Shown here: in pieces, positions 975 to 11,566 of the stretch
Position numbering within the stretch: the stretch's first letter is position 1
Layout: each line of letters starts with the position of its first letter
From: Campylobacteraceae bacterium
GTDB taxonomy: Bacteria; Campylobacterota; Campylobacteria; Campylobacterales; Sulfurospirillaceae
Reading direction: 5' to 3'
Assembly: GCA_027040375.1 (NCBI GenBank)
Contig: JALUMJ010000063.1
Coordinates: 1 to 11,655, forward strand
DNA length: 11,655 nt
Position numbers and translations under genes: made by a program
The notes under the pieces: model-generated
What the model was told of the DNA's origin: nothing
The model's database searches: none
Seen by the model: the letters and a program-made list of their open reading frames with translations, nothing else

Positions 975-3236
975 CTATGCCGGTATCTTTACTTTTTTAC
1001 TCTTTATGTACTCATCTATTTCTTTAGCAGCTTTTTTACCTGCTCCCATAGCTTGTATCACTGTGGCAGCTCCTGTTACGATATCGCCACCAGCAAATAC
1101 TCCTTCTCTTGTTGTTTCTGTAATTTTCCCTTCTTCGATTACGATAGTGCCTTTTGGAGTAGTATCCATGCCCCCAGTTGTGGAAGTTACCAAATCATTT
1201 GGTTTGGTACCGATTGAGATGATGACGGTATCAGCTTCTATTATAAATTCTGAGCCTTCTATCTCTGTTGGTCTTCTTCTGCCACTTTCATCTGGTTCTC
1301 CTAGTTCCATTTTTGCACATTTTAAGCCTTTTACCCTGCCTTTTTCATCTGCTAAAATTTCTATAGGATTTGTTAAAAGTTTAAAATCAATACCTTCTTC
1401 TTTAGCATGTTTTGTTTCTTCAGCACGAGCTGGTATATCTTCATAGCTTCTTCTATAAATGATGCTAGTTTGTGCACCTAATCTTTTAGCAACTCTTGCT
1501 GAGTCCATTGAGACATTTCCAGCTCCAATGACGGCTACTTTATCGCCTATGGTAGTTGGAGTGTGATAGTCTTTTTTGTTTCCACCCATAAGGTTAACTC
1601 TTGTTAAAAATTCATTTGCAGAGAGCACGCCCATAGAATTCTCACCTTTGATCCCTAAAAAGTTTGGAAAACCTGCTCCACTTCCTACAAAAACAGCTTC
1701 GTACCCTTCGTCAAATAATTCATCTATCGTTATAGTCTTTCCGATAACTACATTTGTGTGAAATTTTACACCTAATTTTTTGATTCTATCTATCTCAGCT
1801 TTTACTATTTCTTTAGGTAATCTAAATGATGGAATTCCATAGGCTAATACACCACCAAGTTTGTGTAATGATTCAAAAACATCAACCTCGTACCCATATT
1901 CTGAAAGTTGAGCAGAAGCGGCAAGACCAGATGGTCCACTACCTACAATGGCCACTTTTTTGCCATTTTTCTTTGGTACTTTTGTTTCCATATGCTGAAG
2001 TGACCAGTCACCAACAAATCTTTCCAATAGTCCAATAGCCAAAGGCTCTCCTTTTTTCCCTGAGATGCAGCTTCCTTCACACTGTTTTTCTTGAGGGCAA
2101 ACTCTGCCACAAATAGAAGCCAATTTTGTGTGAGCTAACAATACGCTTGCGGCTCCTTCTATGTCTTCTTCTCTTAATTTTTTGATAAAAGTAGGTATAT
2201 CTATGCCAACTGGACAAGAATTAACACATTTTGGATGTTTGCATATGAAGCAACGATTTGCTTCAGCTACAACTTCTTTAAATGTATAACCAAGGCTAAC
2301 TTCATCGAAAGTATGAGCCCTGTGAAGTGGCTCCCTGACATACGGAAGTGATCTTTTTTTGGCATCTTGCACTTCCTCGTGTTCTATTGGGCATTCTTCA
2401 TTTTCATGTTCGTCTTCTAGTGTGTTTTCTTGGCGCATTCTAAGACGCATTTGAGCTTCGTCAAAATTGACTTTAAAACCATCAAATTCTGGCCCATCCA
2501 CGCAAGCAAATTTTACTTTACCATCTATCTCAACTCTACAAGCCCCACACATTCCAGTTCCATCCACCATAAGAGGATTTAGACTTACTGTGGTCGGAAT
2601 GTTGAGTTTTTCAGTCATCAAAGTTGCAAATTTCATCATAATCATAGGGCCAATCGCAACTGCATGTGTAAATTTTTTACCATCCTCAAGCACAAGTTTT
2701 TCTAATACATTTGTTACATTGCCATGCAAGCTATATGAGCCATCATCTGTACACACATGTACATTTGGAGTTAGTTTTTTAAACTCCTCTTCTAATATTA
2801 ATAAATCTTTCGAGCGAGAACCCAAGATGACATCCATTTTTAAGCCCTGCTGTGAAAACCATTTGATTTGTGGATGTATAGGGGCAGCGCCAACACCTCC
2901 AGCAATAAATACAAAATGCTGTTTTTTAAGTTCTTCTATATCATCATGCATAAATTCACACATTTGCCCAAGAGGACCAACTAGATCTTCAAAGCTATCA
3001 CCAACATTGAGTTTTTCCATGTCTTTTGTGCTTTCACCAACGATTTGGAATATTATATTAACGCTTCCAACTTTTTTATCATAATCGCAAATTGTAAGTG
3101 GAATTCTCTCAGCAAATTCATCCATCTTGACGATTAAAAATTGACCAGGCATCGCTTTTTTAGCAACTCTTGGTGCTAATATATCCATTGACAATATATT
3201 TGATGATAAATATTTTTTACTTAATACCTTATACAT
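975..3236 (-). CDS. NfnAB-like fused NADPH oxidoreductase (PyrK/NfnA-like domain + GltD/NfnB-like domain)
   Basis: A 753-residue single chain joining two proteins that are separate subunits in NfnAB or SudBA. Residues 1-260 form a ferredoxin-reductase-like FAD/NAD(P)-binding unit (GGVGAAP at 113-119) with a [2Fe-2S] motif C230/C233/C245 followed by the VDGPEFDG block. An acidic linker of about 265-295 follows. The rest is like glutamate synthase small subunit/NfnB: two four-Cys clusters (C329, C332, C337, C341 and C376, C380, C386, C390), an FAD Rossmann motif GSGPSGLAA at 432-440, an NADPH-type motif GAGNVSMDSAR at 571-581 with YRRS, and a closing GDIVTGAATV. Nfn interconverts NADH, NADPH and ferredoxin by flavin-based bifurcation; SudBA relatives also reduce sulfur. 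The ATG at 3234-3236 has GGGGAG just upstream and is preferred to one seven codons earlier. The gene overlaps etfBA by 8 bases, so the two are translated together. The specific reaction is unproven. Confidence 0.87.
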   Translation of the reverse strand: MYKVLSKKYLSSNILSMDILAPRVAKKAMPGQFLIVKMDEFAERIPLTICDYDKKVGSVNIIFQIVGESTKDMEKLNVGDSFEDLVGPLGQMCEFMHDDIEELKKQHFVFIAGGVGAAPIHPQIKWFSQQGLKMDVILGSRSKDLLILEEEFKKLTPNVHVCTDDGSYSLHGNVTNVLEKLVLEDGKKFTHAVAIGPMIMMKFATLMTEKLNIPTTVSLNPLMVDGTGMCGACRVEIDGKVKFACVDGPEFDGFKVNFDEAQMRLRMRQENTLEDEHENEECPIEHEEVQDAKKRSLPYVREPLHRAHTFDEVSLGYTFKEVVAEANRCFICKHPKCVNSCPVGIDIPTFIKKLREEDIEGAASVLLAHTKLASICGRVCPQEKQCEGSCISGKKGEPLAIGLLERFVGDWSLQHMETKVPKKNGKKVAIVGSGPSGLAASAQLSEYGYEVDVFESLHKLGGVLAYGIPSFRLPKEIVKAEIDRIKKLGVKFHTNVVIGKTITIDELFDEGYEAVFVGSGAGFPNFLGIKGENSMGVLSANEFLTRVNLMGGNKKDYHTPTTIGDKVAVIGAGNVSMDSARVAKRLGAQTSIIYRRSYEDIPARAEETKHAKEEGIDFKLLTNPIEILADEKGRVKGLKCAKMELGEPDESGRRRPTEIEGSEFIIEADTVIISIGTKPNDLVTSTTGGMDTTPKGTIVIEEGKITETTREGVFAGGDIVTGAATVIQAMGAGKKAAKEIDEYIKSKKVKIPA

Positions 3237-5190
3237 CTTTACTCCCCTTATCCCCATTTTGTTTTAAGCCAAAGGCAAAACCTTTTTTTACTCTGTCTAT
3301 CAACTCTGGTATTATGTCTTCATAGTCACCAACTAATGCAAAATCTGAGTGTGAAAATATACTTGCATTTGAATGTTTATTGATTGCAATTATAGTGTCT
3401 GATTCTTTCATGCCAGCTATATGTTGTATCGCCCCAGAAATGCCAACAGCTACATAAACCTTTGGTCTAACAGTTTTTCCTGTCTGGCCAACTTGCCTTG
3501 CGTATTCGCAAATACCCTCATCTACCATAGGCCTACTAGATCCATATTCTGCACTGATTCCTTTGTCTTTTAGTGTGTTAACCAAATCTTTTATCAATTT
3601 CATCTCATCACCTATGGTGCCTCTACCGCCAGATATGATGATGTCAGCATCAAATAAGTTTGCTAATCCCCCATCTCCTCTAACAGTTTTTATGATTTGT
3701 GTTATGAAATCTTTTTCTTCTAAAACTGGTTTAAAAGTTGTTATCTTTCCTTTTGCGCTCTCATCTCTTGGTGGAACTTCAAATGTACCAGCTCTTGCAG
3801 TTGATATTTGCGGGCAATGAAAACCAAGTATAGTGGCTAGTTTAGATTCCCCATAAGTTGGTCTTCTTGATTCTAAAATCGGAGAAAAAATTCTTTTGTT
3901 TTTTCTATCAAGATGCTCACCAATTTCTAGTGAAGTACAATCAGCCGTTACTCCACTTTGAGTTTTAACAGCCGTCCTAGGTGCGAGTTCTCTCCCAGCA
4001 GTTGTAGCTGAAAATAGAGCTATCTCAGGATTGTATTTTTTGATAATTTGCTCAAAGATGGAGGAAAATGGAAGTATTCTATACTCTTCAAGCCTCTCAT
4101 CATCTACCACGATAACTTCATCACTTCCGTGATAAATCAACTCTTTTGCTAAGTGTTCAACCTTGCTTCCTATAAGCAAGGTAGTAACTTTAGTTCCAGA
4201 TTCTAGAGAATTCGCCAAATTTCGAGCTGGTGTTAAAAGTTCAAGCGATGGTCTAGTGATTTCGCCATTTGCAAGTTCTGCCCAAGTGAGAATTCCGCTT
4301 GCGCCTTTTCTAAAATCTACTCTTTCATAATCTTCGGGCATCTCTTTTTTCTTAATCTCTTTTTTTACTGTTTCTTCTAAGCTGTTTTTTCCTTTTTTGA
4401 TATTTTCTATCAAGCTTTCGACTAAGTCTGAAGTGCCCTCGCCATCGCAAAATATTGCAGGAGCTCTCTGGCTTTTAATATTTGCAACTTTAGCAACGAT
4501 TGTAGGAGAACCCGAGAGCCCAATCTTTTCATCGCTTAAATTTACATCATCTATGCTAAATACAGTAACCTTGGTTTCCCTAGCCCTCACGGTTCCTGCT
4601 AAACTAGGTCTCCTAGGAGGAATTCCAGTTGGAGTGAGTGAGAGTGTGCAAGGTTTTGGTAATTTTAGTATTTGATAACCACCCTCTATGATTCTCCTTG
4701 CTATTATGTGTCCATCCTCATACTGTATATCTTCTATAAAAGTAGCTTGTGGTATTCCCATATTTTCTGCGACTTGAGATGGTATATGAGCAGTGTCTCC
4801 ATCACTTGTTTGTCGCCCAGCTACTATGATAAAATCTTCATTTGCACCTTTGCCAAAGCCCAAATGCTTAAGCATGGTTGATATCGCAAGACCTGTAGCA
4901 AAAGTATCAGAACCTCCTAGCTTTCTATCTGAAAGCAAGTAAGCTTCATCATAACCCATCGATATCGCTTTTTTTAGGGATTGATTAAATGATGGCGGCC
5001 CCATAGAACATACTATGAGCTTTGCTCCGCTAATCATAGATTTTAGCTGTAACCCCGCTTCTAAAGCAAAAGAGCAATCTATATTTATGATTGATTTGGC
5101 TTTTGTTCTATCCATGAGTCCATCATCTCCCATCCTCATCTGAGACGGAAGAGGAACTTGTTTCATCAAGCTTATTATTGTTGTTGCCAT
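3229..5190 (-). CDS. Fused electron transfer flavoprotein (EtfB-EtfA single chain)
   Basis: A 653-residue fusion. Residues 1 to about 265 are the beta subunit (MATTIISLMKQVP, INIDCSFALEAGLQLK, SMGPPS, GGSDTFATG, GRQTSDGDTAHI). A lysine- and glutamate-rich linker of about 268-295 follows. The alpha subunit runs from about 298 to 640, with its FAD site SGGRG at 520-524 and QTGKTVRPKVYVAVGISGAI at 569-588, then QH and NK. The GDTA motif (131-134) and the alpha LAPR/TADCT blocks (402-405, 415-419) resemble clostridial bifurcating ETFs rather than mitochondrial ones, which have a D-N-Q-T-type loop there. ETF passes electrons from dehydrogenases to ETF:quinone oxidoreductase, or bifurcates from NADH. 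ATG at 5188-5190 has GGAG eight bases upstream; a longer reading adds 24 residues that overlap the gene before it and is unlikely. It lies 23 bases after the quinone oxidoreductase and overlaps the Nfn-like gene. Confidence 0.9.
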   Translation of the reverse strand: MATTIISLMKQVPLPSQMRMGDDGLMDRTKAKSIINIDCSFALEAGLQLKSMISGAKLIVCSMGPPSFNQSLKKAISMGYDEAYLLSDRKLGGSDTFATGLAISTMLKHLGFGKGANEDFIIVAGRQTSDGDTAHIPSQVAENMGIPQATFIEDIQYEDGHIIARRIIEGGYQILKLPKPCTLSLTPTGIPPRRPSLAGTVRARETKVTVFSIDDVNLSDEKIGLSGSPTIVAKVANIKSQRAPAIFCDGEGTSDLVESLIENIKKGKNSLEETVKKEIKKKEMPEDYERVDFRKGASGILTWAELANGEITRPSLELLTPARNLANSLESGTKVTTLLIGSKVEHLAKELIYHGSDEVIVVDDERLEEYRILPFSSIFEQIIKKYNPEIALFSATTAGRELAPRTAVKTQSGVTADCTSLEIGEHLDRKNKRIFSPILESRRPTYGESKLATILGFHCPQISTARAGTFEVPPRDESAKGKITTFKPVLEEKDFITQIIKTVRGDGGLANLFDADIIISGGRGTIGDEMKLIKDLVNTLKDKGISAEYGSSRPMVDEGICEYARQVGQTGKTVRPKVYVAVGISGAIQHIAGMKESDTIIAINKHSNASIFSHSDFALVGDYEDIIPELIDRVKKGFAFGLKQNGDKGSKDV

Positions 5191-5213
5191 TTTATTACTC
5201 CAAGTTTTTATTT

Positions 5214-6872
5214 TTACATATTTTGATATTGCGGACCATCTCCACCATATGGTGTATTCCAAGTAATCTCATCATTTGGTGTTTTTATGTCGCAAGTTTT
5301 ACAATGAACACAATTTTCGGCGTGTATTTTAAGTGCGTGATTGTTCTGCTTATCTATGTGTTCTTCATATACTGCTGCTGGACAAAAGTATTGACACGGC
5401 ATGCCATACTCTTTTATATTTGAGTTATTAAACTCATCCATATTCTTTACATGTAAGTGCACAAGTTGTTCTTCATCGTGGGCAGTACCAGAATAAAAAA
5501 CACTAGTGTCTTTATCAAAGGTCAATACTTTATCGAACTCTAATTTATCTTTGAATCTGTCTTTAAATAGTTCGCCATTATATTCTTTTAATTTTTTTGT
5601 AGTTTTGCTGTCCTTTGGTAACAATGGTGTTAAGGGACTGTATCCATTTGTAACAAGGCTAATTCCAAATTTATAGCCTCCATAAAATAGACCTTGGCTC
5701 ATGACAGCTCTAAAGTTTCTCACAGGATATAACTCTTTTTTTATCCTACTGTTTTCTATCAATTTTTCATATTTTTTGAGTGTTGCTTCAGTAAAATCAT
5801 CTTTTATAAGAGCGATATATGCTGTTTCAGCTGCGCACATACCAGATGTAACTGCGAGATGCACACCTTTGAGTGCTGGCATCGCTACAAAACCCGCACT
5901 GTCGCCTACTATCAACAAATTATCTATATAGAGTTTCGAAACGCTATTCCATCCACCCTCAGGTATGGTTTTTGCACCATATTCTACAATGTTTCCATCT
6001 TTTAGTATATTTTTTATAAAAGGATGTTGTTTCCAGATTTGCATCAATGCGTTTGGGTCTAGTGTTGGGTCTTCATAATCTAATCCAACAGCAAAACCTA
6101 AAGCGACTTTATTGTCTTTTAGCCCATATAAAAATCCACCGCCAAATTCTTCTTTTGTGTTGAGTGGATAGCCAAATGTATGATACGCTTCCCCTCCTTT
6201 AATACTTCCTTCTTTTACATTCCATAATTCTTTGATACCTAAAGAGTAGGATTGAGGATTTGATTTAGCTCTAAGATTGAATTTGTCTTTTACTTTTTTT
6301 GCTAAACTTCCTCTAGTGCCCTCTGCTAGTACAATCAACTTTGCTTCTACTTTTGTACCTTCTTGGAAATTCTTTTGTTTTTCTCCATTGTGGTTAACTC
6401 CTGTATCCTTGCATTTTATGCCTATTATGTTTCCTTCATCATATATAAAATTATCAACAGCAAAACCAGAGTAAATTTCTACGCCTTTTTCCTCAGCCAA
6501 TTTTGCTAAGTACCTGCATACTTGAGAAAGAGAAATAATTGTACGATTTAAGTTATTCATATATGGTGGATTAAAAGGAAGAGCATACGAACTACTTGGT
6601 GATAGTTTTAGTGTTTTATCTATTATAACTTTACCCTGTGTTGGCAAGTTCTCAAACTCCTCTTCGTTTAATAATTCTTTAAATGCTTCTTCTTTTATGA
6701 GTGCACCTGAGAGTATATGGGCACCAACTTCGCTACCTTTATCTATGACCATGATACGCTTTTTTTCACCACCACAGTTTAATTTGTTTGCTAAGTGTAT
6801 CGCACAACTTAAACCTGAAGGACCAGCACCAACTACCAAAACATCAGTAAAAAGTCTATTTTTATCTTCCAT
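5214..6872 (-). CDS. Electron transfer flavoprotein:quinone oxidoreductase (ETF-QO)
   Basis: A 552-residue protein of full ETFDH length. An N-terminal FAD site DVLVVGAGPSGLSCAIHLA (residues 10-28) is followed by the IDKGSEVGAHILSGA block. The second FAD segment holds VGDSAGFVAMPALKGVHLA, and near residue 400 GLFYGGYKFGI matches the membrane-facing quinone region. The C-terminus is a ferredoxin-like domain with cluster ligands C497 (FCPAAVYE) and C521, C524, C527 (CVHCKTC), ending in the family's GGDGPQYQNM. It should accept electrons from the ETF encoded next and reduce menaquinone as a monotopic inner-membrane protein. Resemblance is to canonical ETFDH rather than to FixC, whose ferredoxin partner FixX is separate. 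ATG at 6870-6872 has GAGG seven bases upstream. It is the first gene of the operon. Confidence 0.93.
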   Translation of the reverse strand: MEDKNRLFTDVLVVGAGPSGLSCAIHLANKLNCGGEKKRIMVIDKGSEVGAHILSGALIKEEAFKELLNEEEFENLPTQGKVIIDKTLKLSPSSSYALPFNPPYMNNLNRTIISLSQVCRYLAKLAEEKGVEIYSGFAVDNFIYDEGNIIGIKCKDTGVNHNGEKQKNFQEGTKVEAKLIVLAEGTRGSLAKKVKDKFNLRAKSNPQSYSLGIKELWNVKEGSIKGGEAYHTFGYPLNTKEEFGGGFLYGLKDNKVALGFAVGLDYEDPTLDPNALMQIWKQHPFIKNILKDGNIVEYGAKTIPEGGWNSVSKLYIDNLLIVGDSAGFVAMPALKGVHLAVTSGMCAAETAYIALIKDDFTEATLKKYEKLIENSRIKKELYPVRNFRAVMSQGLFYGGYKFGISLVTNGYSPLTPLLPKDSKTTKKLKEYNGELFKDRFKDKLEFDKVLTFDKDTSVFYSGTAHDEEQLVHLHVKNMDEFNNSNIKEYGMPCQYFCPAAVYEEHIDKQNNHALKIHAENCVHCKTCDIKTPNDEITWNTPYGGDGPQYQNM

Positions 6873-7189: not shown

Positions 7190-8620
7190 TTAGCAAGAGT
7201 AAGTTGATTTAAATTCAAATGCAGTTGGTCTTCCTTCATCAGGCCAAACTTGTGTTTCAAATTTATATTGCTTGTATGTGCTTAGAAATTTATCACTCAT
7301 AACAGATTTTAAGTAATCTTGGTCTTTTAAAAGCGATTCTAATGCTTCTCTTAAAGTGTGAGGCATTTGCTCTATCCCTTTTTCTCTAATTTCATCAAGG
7401 CTTAATTCAAATAAATCTTCATTCATAGGACCAACTGGCTCAGTTTTGTTTTTGATACCATCAAGTCCAGCTAAAAGAAGTGCTGTAAATGCAAGATAAG
7501 GACAAGCAGTAGAGTCTGGAAATCTCATCTCAGCTCTTACAGCTTTTTCGTTAGCTCCATAAGGGATACGACAACTTGCACTTCTATTTTGGGAAGAATA
7601 AGTCAAGATTGAAGGAGCTTCAAAACCTGGAATCAATCTTTTATAAGAGTTAGTTGATGGATTTGTAAAAGCAGCTACACTTTGAGCATGTTTTAAAACA
7701 CCACCTATATAATGTCTAGCCATATCACTTAGATTTGCATATTCTCCAGCTTTATAGAACAAGTTTTTACCATCTTTCCAGATTGATTGATGAACATGCA
7801 TTCCGTTTCCATTGTCTCCATAAAGTGGTTTTGGCATAAATGTTGCAGTTTTCCCATTTAAGTGAGCTACCATTTTTACAACATATTTGTATATTTGTAC
7901 ATTATCAGCTGCTTCAACAAGTGTTCCAAATTTTACACCTATTTCACCTTGTGCTTGTGCAACTTCGTGATGAACAACAAAAGTTTCTAACCCAACTTGC
8001 TCCAATACTTGAACCATTTCAGCTCTTAAATCAACCATAGAGTCAGTTGGTTGGCAAGGGAAATACCCACCTTTTGTTCCAGGACGATGACCAGAATTAA
8101 AGCCATCAGGATAAGTTGTGTTATTACTCCACTCTCCCTCTTCAGAGTCAACTTCATAGTAAGCGCAGTTTATATCGTCTCTGATTTTAACATCATCAAA
8201 GACAAAAAATTCATTCTCAGGTCCAAAATAAGCAACATCGCCCAAACCAGTTTCGCTTAAATGTTGTAATGCTTTCTTGGCGATACTTCTTGGACACTTT
8301 TCGTACAATTCATTTTTATATATATCAAATACATCACAAAAAACAATGATAGTTGAATCAGCAGTAAATGGATCTAAAAAAGCACTCGGGGCTTCTGGCA
8401 TAAGAATCATATCTGATTCATTGATAGGTTGCCACGCATCTATGCTTGAGCCATCAAATGGGATACCATCTTTAAAAGAATCAGCTTCGATAGCTGACAT
8501 TCTATAAGTCAGATGATGCCAAGTACCTTTTATATCTGAAAAACGAAAATCCACAAATTCTACTTCATTCTCTTCACAATACTCAAAAAACTCCTCCACA
8601 CTATTGACAAACTTGCCCAT
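7190..8620 (-). CDS. glnA: Glutamine synthetase type I
   Basis: A 476-residue enzyme that makes glutamine from glutamate, ammonia and ATP in the cytoplasm as a dodecamer. Family blocks appear in order: the N-terminal beta-grasp domain with [10 protein letters not shown], the metal/glutamate site GNGMHVHQS, the [10 protein letters not shown] and [15 protein letters not shown]/ammonia region, and [17 protein letters not shown] followed by [12 protein letters not shown]. At the usual adenylylation site (NLYDLPPEE in E. coli) the sequence reads DLFELSLDE, with F404 replacing the tyrosine, so control by GlnE should be impossible. A similar loss is known in Helicobacter pylori. ATG at 8618-8620 is preceded by AAGGAG eight bases upstream. 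It follows the PHP gene by 69 bases and ends in a strong hairpin. Confidence 0.97.
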
Positions 8621-9544: not shown

Positions 9545-10303
9545 ATGACGCAAGAAGAACTTGATGCATTGATGGCTGGTGGTTTGGATGACCAGGATTT
9601 TGGTGATGAAAATACGAAGACAGAAAAAAAAGATGAAGAAATAGAAAAAGAAGTTGTCTGTGAAAAAGCAGAAGACAAGGAAGTAGAAAAGGAAATCGTC
9701 CCTGAAGAAACAGAAAAGTATGAAGGCGCAAGTGAATACAAAGCTGATCCAAATGTAGCTTGGCCACCACCACCTCCAACTGAAGACCACAAAATGGTTT
9801 CGCAACTTGATGATGTAACAAGAGATTCAGAAGTAAAAGCTGGTGAAATATTTGATAAGCTAGAAACTGTAAACAATGTTTTAATGGACGCTGAATCAGA
9901 TATATCTAAGATAATTCCTGTGATTGAATCCAATATCGCGCTTTTTGAAAAATTAACAGCTAAATTTCCAAAGATAGAACAGTTTAGTAAAGCCCTTGAA
10001 GAAAACAAGGAAGCAAAAGAAAAATTAAGTGCTTTAACCAACAATGCACAAATGGGTGAAGATGAGATTATGATGGCCATGGATATCATGCAGTATCAAG
10101 ATATACATAGACAAAAGATTGAGCGAGTTATAAATGTCATGCGAGCACTTTCAAAATACATCAGTTTGCTATTTGAAGGATCAATTGATGATAAAAGCAG
10201 AGTTAGCTCTGCGGTTCACATCGAAGGAGACGAGGGCACAGATGATCTTGTAACAAGTGAAGATATAGAAGCTATAATTGAAAGTTTAGGTAAAAAGAAA
10301 TAG
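9545..10303 (+). CDS. cheZ: CheZ-type CheY-phosphate phosphatase (epsilonproteobacterial form)
   Basis: A 252-residue protein. Residues 98-215 are long helices of the CheZ four-helix bundle. YQDIHRQKIERV (184-195) aligns with the E. coli catalytic FQDLTGQVIKR helix, placing the acidic residue at D186 and the catalytic glutamine at Q190. It should speed dephosphorylation of CheY-P in the cytoplasm and so set flagellar switching. The N-terminus, TQEELDALMAGG (2-13), resembles the CheY-P-binding tip of FliM. The C-terminus, EDIEAIIESLGKK (239-251), resembles the CheY-binding tail of E. coli CheZ. Residues 24-65 are a charged Lys/Glu-rich linker, followed by a proline run at 74-78. It matches the remote CheZ known from H. 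pylori better than the enterobacterial type. Its stop is directly followed by the next ATG. Confidence 0.85.
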   Translation: MTQEELDALMAGGLDDQDFGDENTKTEKKDEEIEKEVVCEKAEDKEVEKEIVPEETEKYEGASEYKADPNVAWPPPPPTEDHKMVSQLDDVTRDSEVKAGEIFDKLETVNNVLMDAESDISKIIPVIESNIALFEKLTAKFPKIEQFSKALEENKEAKEKLSALTNNAQMGEDEIMMAMDIMQYQDIHRQKIERVINVMRALSKYISLLFEGSIDDKSRVSSAVHIEGDEGTDDLVTSEDIEAIIESLGKKK

Positions 10304-11566
10304 ATGAGTAAAGTCGAATTATTATCTCCTGCTGGAAATTTTGAAAAATTAAAAATTGCGCTAGCTTATGGTGCTGACGCAGTTTATGCGGGAGTAAGTC
10401 ACTTTTCACTAAGGCTTAGAAGTGGAAAAGAGTTCACTTACGAAAGTTTCGAAGAAGCTATTGACTATACACATGCACTTGGTAAGAAACTATATGTTAC
10501 AGTAAATGGATTTCCTTTTAATGCACAAATAGATTTACTAAAAAAACATATAGAAAAAGTAGCTTTAATGAAACCAGATGCTTTTATAGTCGCAGCCCCT
10601 GGCGTGGTAAGACTTGTTCGCTCAATCGCACCTGATATACCAATCCATCTTTCTACTCAAGCAAATGTTTTGAGTTATCTTGATGCTGAGGTTTACTGGG
10701 ATATGGGTGTCAAAAGAATAATCGCTGCACGAGAAGTGAGCCTAAAAGATTTGCAAAAGATAAAAGAACACTTGCCAAAGCTTGAGCTTGAAGTTTTTGT
10801 GCACGGCTCTATGTGCTTTGCATATAGCGGAAGATGCTTGATAAGCTCTTTACAAAGTGGAAGAGTTTCAAATCGTGGAAGTTGTGCAAATGATTGTAGA
10901 TTTCCTTACACGATGTACGCTAAAAACGAAGAGAGTGGCACCCTTTTTAAGGTGCAAGAGAGTGAAGAGGGAACGCATATCATGAACGCAAAAGATTTAA
11001 ATCTTAGCGCACATGTAGATACTATTTTAGATAGTGGCGTGATTGATTCTTTGAAGATTGAGGGTAGAACAAAAAGCACATATTATGTGGGAATTACTAC
11101 TAAAATATACGCTAAAGCTATAGATGATTATTATGGGCAAAAATTTAATGCTACAGAATATGAAGCAGAATTGAACAGCACAAAAAACAGAGGTTTTAAT
11201 GATGGGTATCTAGTGAAAAGACCATTTGAAAAACATGGTACTCAAAATCTAGAAGATTCTATCAGTGAGGGAACTCATCAGGTTTGTGCCATGGTTGATG
11301 AAGATGGAATCGGATGTTTGTGTAAAGATAAATTAGAGCCAAATGAGCCATATGAATTGGTTTTTCCGAATTTTGATATAAAAAATATCGAAAATGAATT
11401 TGGAAAAGTTTATGAAAAAGATGGAAGATGGTATATAGTTTTCGAGAAGCTTCAAGCAAAAAATGGTAAAATATATGATTCAATACACAGTGGAAATACA
11501 AATTCTATTTTGTTGCCAGAAAAACTACCCGCATTCACATTTTTAAGAAGGAAGATAGTAAAATGA
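10304..11566 (+). CDS. U32 family protein, TrhP (YegQ)-like tRNA hydroxylation factor
   Basis: A 420-residue protein with the N-terminal ELLSPAGNFEKLKIALAYGADAVY block and the U32 signature at residues 163-181 (EVFVHGS, C171, GRC178 LIS). C194 and C198 follow, so C171, C178, C194 and C198 could hold an iron-sulfur cluster, as in the related UbiU/UbiV. U32 members were first called peptidases, but the YegQ/TrhP branch acts in prephenate-dependent 5-hydroxyuridine formation at tRNA position 34. Length (E. coli YegQ is about 450) and the DSLKIEGR block (248-255) suit this branch, though RlhA-like or protease roles cannot be excluded. ATG directly abuts the cheZ TAG, with only a weak AGG-like ribosome site, suggesting coupled translation. 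Its end overlaps purE by four bases. Confidence 0.82.
   Translation: MSKVELLSPAGNFEKLKIALAYGADAVYAGVSHFSLRLRSGKEFTYESFEEAIDYTHALGKKLYVTVNGFPFNAQIDLLKKHIEKVALMKPDAFIVAAPGVVRLVRSIAPDIPIHLSTQANVLSYLDAEVYWDMGVKRIIAAREVSLKDLQKIKEHLPKLELEVFVHGSMCFAYSGRCLISSLQSGRVSNRGSCANDCRFPYTMYAKNEESGTLFKVQESEEGTHIMNAKDLNLSAHVDTILDSGVIDSLKIEGRTKSTYYVGITTKIYAKAIDDYYGQKFNATEYEAELNSTKNRGFNDGYLVKRPFEKHGTQNLEDSISEGTHQVCAMVDEDGIGCLCKDKLEPNEPYELVFPNFDIKNIENEFGKVYEKDGRWYIVFEKLQAKNGKIYDSIHSGNTNSILLPEKLPAFTFLRRKIVK

Follow-up and report, generated by a model that had tools for sequence, protein, structure and literature searches.

The 11,655-base stretch analysed here (the window; contig C63, from a draft genome totalling 1.67 Mb) carries three adjacent genes of redox metabolism, encoding an electron transfer flavoprotein (ETF):quinone oxidoreductase (QO), a single-chain fusion of EtfB and EtfA (EtfBA), and a fused NfnA-NfnB protein (Nfn, an electron-bifurcating transhydrogenase). 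The explanation favoured here, to which we give somewhat better than an even chance, is that QO and EtfBA together bifurcate electrons from NADH to ferredoxin and menaquinone in the manner of EtfABCX, in the service of the (reductive) tricarboxylic acid (TCA) cycle, and that Nfn converts the products to NADPH. This reading is drawn from the similarity of the EtfB half to known ETFs, the conserved residues around the bifurcating flavin adenine dinucleotide (b-FAD), the co-occurrence of QO and EtfBA, the failure to find an acyl-CoA dehydrogenase, and the presence of malate dehydrogenase (MDH), Nfn and other TCA-cycle genes as neighbours.

All three genes are on the (-) strand and are arranged in the order QO (5214..6872; 552 amino acids (aa); Pfam ETFQO_UQ-bd and Fer4_ETF_QO), EtfBA (3229..5190; 653 aa from the ATG at 5190, corresponding to database protein P0001; Pfam ETF twice and ETF_alpha) and Nfn (975..3236; 753 aa from the ATG at 3236; Fer4_20, Pyr_redox_2 and DHODB_Fe-S_bind). 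A gap of 23 bases (5191..5213) separates the QO stop from the EtfBA start, and the EtfBA stop overlaps the Nfn start by 8 bases (3229..3236). The open reading frames and the sequences of both junctions confirmed this layout, including coordinates, strand, gap and overlap, as it had been given in a preliminary description of this DNA, and the gene names were confirmed by Pfam, NCBIfam and PDB matches. An alternative in-frame ATG for Nfn at 3257 would give a protein of 760 aa and an overlap of 29 bases; the ATG at 3236 is close to the point where the homologue alignments begin. From the spacing, we infer that the three genes are co-transcribed; promoter-like and terminator-like sites were no more frequent than in shuffled sequence.

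In EtfBA, the EtfB half is N-terminal and the EtfA half C-terminal (residue numbers below follow a 656-aa reading; for the protein starting at the ATG, 3 should be subtracted). The EtfB half matched bifurcating chains with 159 (6fah_B), 128 (5ol2_B), 119 (4kpu_B), 108 (7qh2_B) and 107 (7koe_A) bits versus 63 (1o94_C), 44 (1efp_B), 43 (2a1t_S), 42 (1efv_B) and 42 (5ow0_B) bits for non-bifurcating chains, and as judged from sequence it resembles the NADH-using ETFs. Residues R31, D133, G134, D135, T136, H138, P140, P232, V235 and R446 are constant in all 81 rows of the alignment. R31, P232, V235 and R446 align with R38, P239 and V242 of TmEtfA and R140 of TmEtfB (PMC10734219), while G134 aligns with Gly123 (PMC12630350), the position at which a small residue leaves room for b-FAD in bifurcating ETFs, and D133-G134-D135-T136 align with the beginning of the DGDTAQVGP motif (PMC9232219). 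The claim in the preliminary description that this ETF belongs to a family including bifurcators is borne out by most of the residues of the bifurcation type, which are present in every row. Three EtfBs encoded on plasmids and presumed to be canonical have neither the Gly nor the SPTxV stretch, and R. etli FixA carries the complete DGDTAQVGP motif. In one genome (L024/L025, G249:C43), EtfBA is read in two frames (residues 2-348 and 373-647), owing either to a break within EtfA or to faulty assembly.

QO is composed of FAD, quinone-binding and C-terminal 4Fe-4S domains, as in a fusion of FixC-like and FixX-like parts. It is nearer to mitochondrial ETF-QO (PDB 2gmh, 364.5 bits) than to FixC/EtfC (7koe_C, 103.5 bits), matches the UQ-binding and Fer4_ETF_QO domains over its full length, as expected for a member of the ETF-QO family, and retains the cysteines of the ETF-QO cluster region. 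It fell far below the cut-off of the NCBIfam FixC models and is not a FixC-family quinone subunit, and the Fe-S domain is fused to QO instead of residing on a separate EtfX with 4Fe-4S clusters.

The best PDB relatives of the fused Nfn are the Nfn chains 4ylf and 5jca, with the NfnS domain placed before the NfnL domain. The 2Fe-2S loop of the NfnA part (DGTGMCGACR and FACVDGPEF, aligned with 5jca_S and 4ylf_A) and the two 4Fe-4S motifs of the NfnB part (CFICKHPKCVNSCPV and CGRVCPQE, aligned with 4ylf_B) are present, and the Arg of FRLPK corresponds to NfnB Arg187 when counted along the alignment with 4ylf_B. The score is below the NCBIfam equivalog cut-off for the fused form NF009414 (1022.4 versus 1103 bits) and above that of TIGR01316 (547.3 versus 471.75 bits). 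The possibility raised at the outset, that this protein serves as the small subunit of glutamate synthase, was ruled out, since GltB (1475 aa) has a dedicated GltD (460 aa) as the next gene on contig C209. A second NfnA-NfnB pair, split, is encoded in the same genome (L115:1362-3592, contig C132), on a long branch apart from the fused Nfn of the operon; a similar split pair was observed in G255 of the same genus (L118:1892-4122).

The gene neighbourhood was examined in named genomes for the best 80 of 195 relatives, with 42 loci counted as Campylobacterota (including L037, labelled 'bacterium', and L053) and 38 as Bacteroidota; gene families were assigned by clustering, and one example of each was checked. 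L053 is a metagenome-assembled genome labelled Helicobacter pylori, and its EtfBA adjoins the Bacteroidota clade in the tree. QO is located immediately before EtfBA in 80/80 loci, five of them with QO cut by the contig start. Among the 42 Campylobacterota loci, EtfBA is followed by an MDH-family gene in 28, by Nfn in 11 (nine whole and two partial, L032 and L035), by an opposite-strand gene in one (L036) and by a contig end in two, leaving 40 with a readable downstream side. The three-gene order is not due to chance, because QO always precedes EtfBA and Nfn follows in 11 of these 40 loci and in 15/16 genomes of the family of the window. MDH and Nfn are both pyridine-nucleotide enzymes, which counts in favour of the proposed bifurcator.

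No MDH-type locus has fused Nfn (0/28), and additional TCA genes are present in 13 of the 28 within the stretch covered. Near the QO-EtfBA pair, fumarase is encoded in 11 of the 42 loci, monomeric isocitrate dehydrogenase in seven, and SucCD together with OorDABC (2-oxoglutarate:ferredoxin oxidoreductase) in four (L040, L062, L077 and L097). A second MDH-family gene lies upstream of QO in 12 loci, directly so in 11, and the two copies in L077 are 53% identical; MDH-family paralogues flank QO-EtfBA in L037, L038, L043-L045, L047, L059, L062, L069, L075, L077 and L097. In Bacteroidales (for example L067, L091 and L101), QO-EtfBA is retained with neither the Campylobacterota TCA families nor Nfn alongside.

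In the EtfBA tree, the root of which is not fixed, the Nfn-bearing rows fall on one side of a branch with 100% support in the Shimodaira-Hasegawa-like approximate likelihood ratio test (SH-aLRT), and the Bacteroidota rows likewise with 99%. An Arcobacter locus (L073) has the order QO, EtfBA, MDH, NfnA, NfnB, with Nfn split, and L047 has an NfnA-like stretch after MDH and fumarase genes; the EtfBAs of both are nested within the MDH-type rows. The clade of fused Nfns excludes the L073 Nfn (bootstrap 100, SH-aLRT 100), which sits on a long branch, the branching order nearby not being settled. From its position and the nesting of its EtfBA among MDH-type rows, Nfn probably joined QO-EtfBA a second time, in the L073 lineage.

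Within the family of the window, 44 genomes were sampled, many of them drafts (77-100% complete). EtfBA was detected in 16/44 and QO in the same 16, and fused Nfn (whole or as pieces at contig ends) adjoins EtfBA on its downstream side in 15 of these, the exception being G174. Fused Nfn thus occurs in 15/16 genomes with EtfBA versus 1/28 without it (Fisher p ~1e-9, though related genomes are not independent). The Nfn search was made at E <= 1e-40, a threshold at which a separate NfnA gene is missed, as was the second one of the window genome; in the remaining family genomes, the matches to the Nfn query begin at residue 301 or later and represent GltD/NfnB-like proteins. The sole family genome with fused Nfn and no QO-EtfBA is G276 (L119:4792-7026), in which Nfn lies downstream of genes resembling, by eye, part of a respiratory molybdoenzyme cluster and is followed by a 633-aa gene of the same length as the gene after Nfn in L034. 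The cassette is patchy, being present in 5/5 genera yet in 4/24 species of the largest genus, and at the order level it was found in 35/398 genomes and 18/87 genera. An even draw over the phylum gave 3/249 genomes including that of the window (E <= 1e-20), with five more partial matches, 33-41% identical, taken as other ETFs. Conservation of the trio, as first proposed, is limited to one clade, the unit conserved more widely being QO-EtfBA.

Alternative partners of the ETF were sought. Acyl-CoA dehydrogenase (PF00441) was detected in 0/16 genomes with EtfBA and 1/44 of the family (G165, which has no ETF of this kind), with positive controls in 9/14; three acyl-CoA dehydrogenase queries gave no match in loci L001-L105, where positive controls worked; and a Pfam scan of the eight window proteins revealed none. 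These results support the view, put forward in the preliminary description, of an electron route between NAD(P)H, ferredoxin and quinone in which no acyl-CoA dehydrogenase takes part. A PF01012 scan of the window genome detected no other ETF, and PntB was found in 0/44 family genomes (control genomes positive 4/14). The PntB result counts in favour of the proposed bifurcator, as do the likely second joining of Nfn and the negative net energy of the reaction given below.

For the favoured reading, we infer the cofactors, NADH as the donor, bifurcation, its direction, and a ferredoxin pool shared by both enzymes. QO and EtfBA would form a membrane-associated complex acting like EtfABCX/FixABCX, in which NADH would reduce the b-FAD in the EtfB half; one electron would travel by way of the mobile FAD in the EtfA half and then through QO (FAD, 4Fe-4S) to menaquinone (MQ), and the other would reduce ferredoxin (Fd), giving 2 NADH + MQ + 2 Fd(ox) -> 2 NAD+ + MQH2 + 2 Fd(red). 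With potentials of -320 mV for NADH, -74 mV for MQ and about -450 mV for Fd (PMC10734219), our own arithmetic indicates that, at two electrons each, the MQ arm releases 47.5 kJ and the ferredoxin arm costs 25.1 kJ, leaving about -22 kJ per 2 NADH. The complex would balance the carriers of the (reductive) TCA cycle, that is, the NADH required by malate dehydrogenase, the menaquinol required by fumarate reductase, and the ferredoxin required by 2-oxoglutarate:ferredoxin oxidoreductase, and Nfn or MDH would either consume or provide the NADH and ferredoxin of the complex.

In the clade of the window, Nfn would supply a fourth carrier, NADPH (NADH + 2 Fd(red) + 2 NADP+ -> NAD+ + 2 Fd(ox) + 2 NADPH). 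The sum of the two reactions, 3 NADH + MQ + 2 NADP+ -> 3 NAD+ + MQH2 + 2 NADPH, would amount to a quinone-driven transhydrogenation with ferredoxin as an internal shuttle. Direct feeding or draining of the ETF by Nfn, as originally suggested, did not gain support, exchange via ferredoxin and NADH being simpler. In an autotroph, reverse operation of complex I could provide the NADH, whereby quinol and proton-motive force would ultimately yield reduced ferredoxin; where Nfn is present, these electrons would be delivered to NADPH for glutamate synthesis or for NADP-dependent isocitrate dehydrogenase, an enzyme reported in the epsilonproteobacterial reductive TCA cycle (PMC4674564).

A number of observations weigh against this explanation. 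The b-FAD motif is partial, with DGDTAH(I/V)P in place of DGDTAQVG and RTKA in place of RXGV; in the rows shown, DGDTA is retained and QVGP is changed to H(I/V)PS (Q to H, G to P, P to S), the H and P being kept in 81/81. The Arg of the TmEtfB R140 type (R446) occurs in non-bifurcating ETFs as well (PMC6405883), and an insertion of about 10 residues stands in the EtfA half immediately before it; in one known ETF, an insertion is suspected to block ferredoxin (PMC9232219). Neither the Gly nor the SPT stretch is present in E. coli FixA, making the motif an imperfect guide, and the fold model (mean pLDDT 73.7), poor at the flavin loops, left the kind of ETF undecided. QO conforms to the canonical ETF-QO type, and the five Cys among its C-terminal ~100 residues are not enough to hold two 4Fe-4S clusters. 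The window genome encodes NuoE and NuoF (in part) of complex I and the second split NfnAB, and no carrier thus depends on the operon alone. The QO-EtfBA pair is absent from 28/44 family genomes; MDH is the lone TCA gene in the stretch covered for 15/28 MDH-type loci, and the Campylobacterota-type TCA families, the only TCA genes sought there, were found in 0/38 Bacteroidota loci. ATP citrate lyase (citrate-binding family PF16114) is present in the window genome and 17/44 family genomes, in 9/16 with EtfBA versus 8/28 without it (Fisher p=0.11), and the tie of EtfBA to autotrophy is loose. The link to the (reductive) TCA cycle suggested beforehand gains support from MDH, which follows EtfBA in 28/40 loci, and from the further TCA genes in 13 of them; with ATP citrate lyase there is no tight association.

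Loss of part of the b-FAD motif, the insertion before R446 and the limited value of that Arg as proof of bifurcation (PMC6405883) would all fit a non-bifurcating route, in which both electrons pass to QO and menaquinone, the complex is an extra NADH dehydrogenase, and Nfn works independently; the neighbouring MDH, moreover, requires only NADH. We regard this route as unlikely, because 81/81 rows retain Gly where Gly123 aligns, as well as P and V in the SPTxV loop, energy would be wasted beside a complex I with NuoEF, and the ferredoxin-dependent Nfn (11/40 loci) and the Oor genes (4/42) point to ferredoxin. Still less probable is an ordinary ETF hub, in which a flavin dehydrogenase encoded elsewhere, for instance of the GlcD/lactate-dehydrogenase type, would reduce EtfBA and thereby QO. 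In Acetobacterium and Fusobacterium, ETFs do have flavin lactate dehydrogenases as partners (PMC9232219, PMC12630350), and the GlcD-type family PF02913 occurs in 44/44 family genomes; these, however, include all 28 without EtfBA, so that PF02913 proteins do not require this ETF. The EtfB similarity to NADH-using ETFs and the lack of a detected acyl-CoA dehydrogenase in the 16 EtfBA genomes also speak against such a hub, and no neighbour family common across loci resembles such a dehydrogenase, most single-locus neighbours not being identified.

In sulfur oxidisers electrons enter at the quinone level, which would suit a complex running mainly in reverse (confurcation), with reduced ferredoxin and menaquinol yielding NADH for Nfn or MDH. 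Ldh-EtfAB is indeed bidirectional and faster in the confurcating direction (PMC9232219). Confurcation would nevertheless cost about +22 kJ per 2 NADH (own arithmetic from the PMC10734219 potentials) and would consume ferredoxin, the supply of which is the very point described as 'still unresolved' for reductive TCA bacteria in a 2023 paper (PMC10052474), and it is considered improbable.

The closest known counterpart of the proposed bifurcator is EtfABCX/FixABCX of Thermotoga maritima and Azotobacter vinelandii, similar in its group-2-like EtfB and EtfA halves, flavin quinone reductase and Fe-S domain, and in the predicted chemistry with NADH, ferredoxin and quinone. That system consists of four polypeptides, whereas the system of the window consists of two, with EtfB fused to EtfA and the quinone part fused to the Fe-S part; its quinone subunit belongs to the ETF-QO instead of the FixC family, its Cys residues suffice for one 4Fe-4S cluster whereas EtfX has 4Fe-4S clusters in the plural (PMC10734219), and its motif is DGDTAHxP. 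In the Clostridium kluyveri unit rex-crt1-bcd1-etfB1A1-hbd1-nfn, Nfn shares a transcription unit with a bifurcating ETF (PMC6405883), but the high-potential acceptor there is butyryl-CoA dehydrogenase, in contrast to what is probably menaquinone, via ETF-QO, in the window genome. The fused Nfn shares the NfnA-NfnB order in one chain, the Fe-S ligands and the Arg with pattern B of fused NfnAB, which the available part of PMC6405883 lists for Firmicutes, Bacteroidetes and Fusobacteria; the clade of the window belongs to Campylobacterota and has it in a QO-EtfBA operon. The mitochondrial and proteobacterial ETF and ETF-QO share the QO family (2gmh), but the ETF of the window is without the canonical motif. 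NfnAB-2 of Desulfovibrio alaskensis, an Nfn that influences fitness during growth on malate and fumarate, comes without mention of ETF or ETF-QO in the available part of PMC4215793. The parts are of known families, and their arrangement is unusual and informative. The preliminary description, made without searches, knew of no system composed in this way; a unit joining a bifurcating ETF to Nfn is known from C. kluyveri, and the combination of a fused group-2-like ETF and ETF-QO beside TCA genes or with Nfn, and with no acyl-CoA dehydrogenase found, was not met in the literature searched.

As to the remainder of the window, glnA (type I glutamine synthetase; 7190..8620, (-) strand; TIGR00653, 638.5 bits) is located 317 bases upstream of QO and probably forms a separate transcript. 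It is also found 264-535 bases before QO in the four relatives with at least 80% EtfBA identity and available upstream sequence (L027, L029, L030 and L031), and is absent before QO in four more distant Nfn-bearing loci (L033, L034, L035 and L039). That glnA has the orientation of the operon both here and in the closest relatives makes a link to nitrogen assimilation via NADPH possible. Downstream of the operon (295-847, (-) strand), a gene for a BrnT-type ribonuclease toxin (Pfam BrnT_toxin) is followed by an 83-aa gene that may encode its BrnA antitoxin. On the other side, a CheZ-like gene and, directly after it, a U32 peptidase-family (TrhP-like) gene (9545-11563, (+) strand) diverge from the glnA-operon side.

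Proteins named ETF alpha and ETF-QO increased in Nitrosophilus labii after addition of N2O (PMC11539149); if these proteins belong to the QO-EtfBA family, a system of this kind may well be expressed. The database names of the relatives include a cultured organism, Sulfurimonas gotlandica GD1. The broader proposal, that QO-EtfBA, as a two-protein NADH:ferredoxin:menaquinone bifurcator set within the TCA gene cluster, provides the reductive TCA cycle with low-potential electrons from a source so far overlooked in the Campylobacterota carrying it, that it interconverts NADH, menaquinol, ferredoxin and NADPH where Nfn is present, and that its role can be reversed when the cycle is oxidative, is put forward tentatively and is rather doubtful at present. 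If QO-EtfBA bifurcates, some Campylobacterota would hold a simple two-gene answer to the question of ferredoxin supply; the ETF-QO fold, known from beta-oxidation, would then be the quinone arm of a bifurcator, and no membrane transhydrogenase would be needed to link Nfn to respiration.

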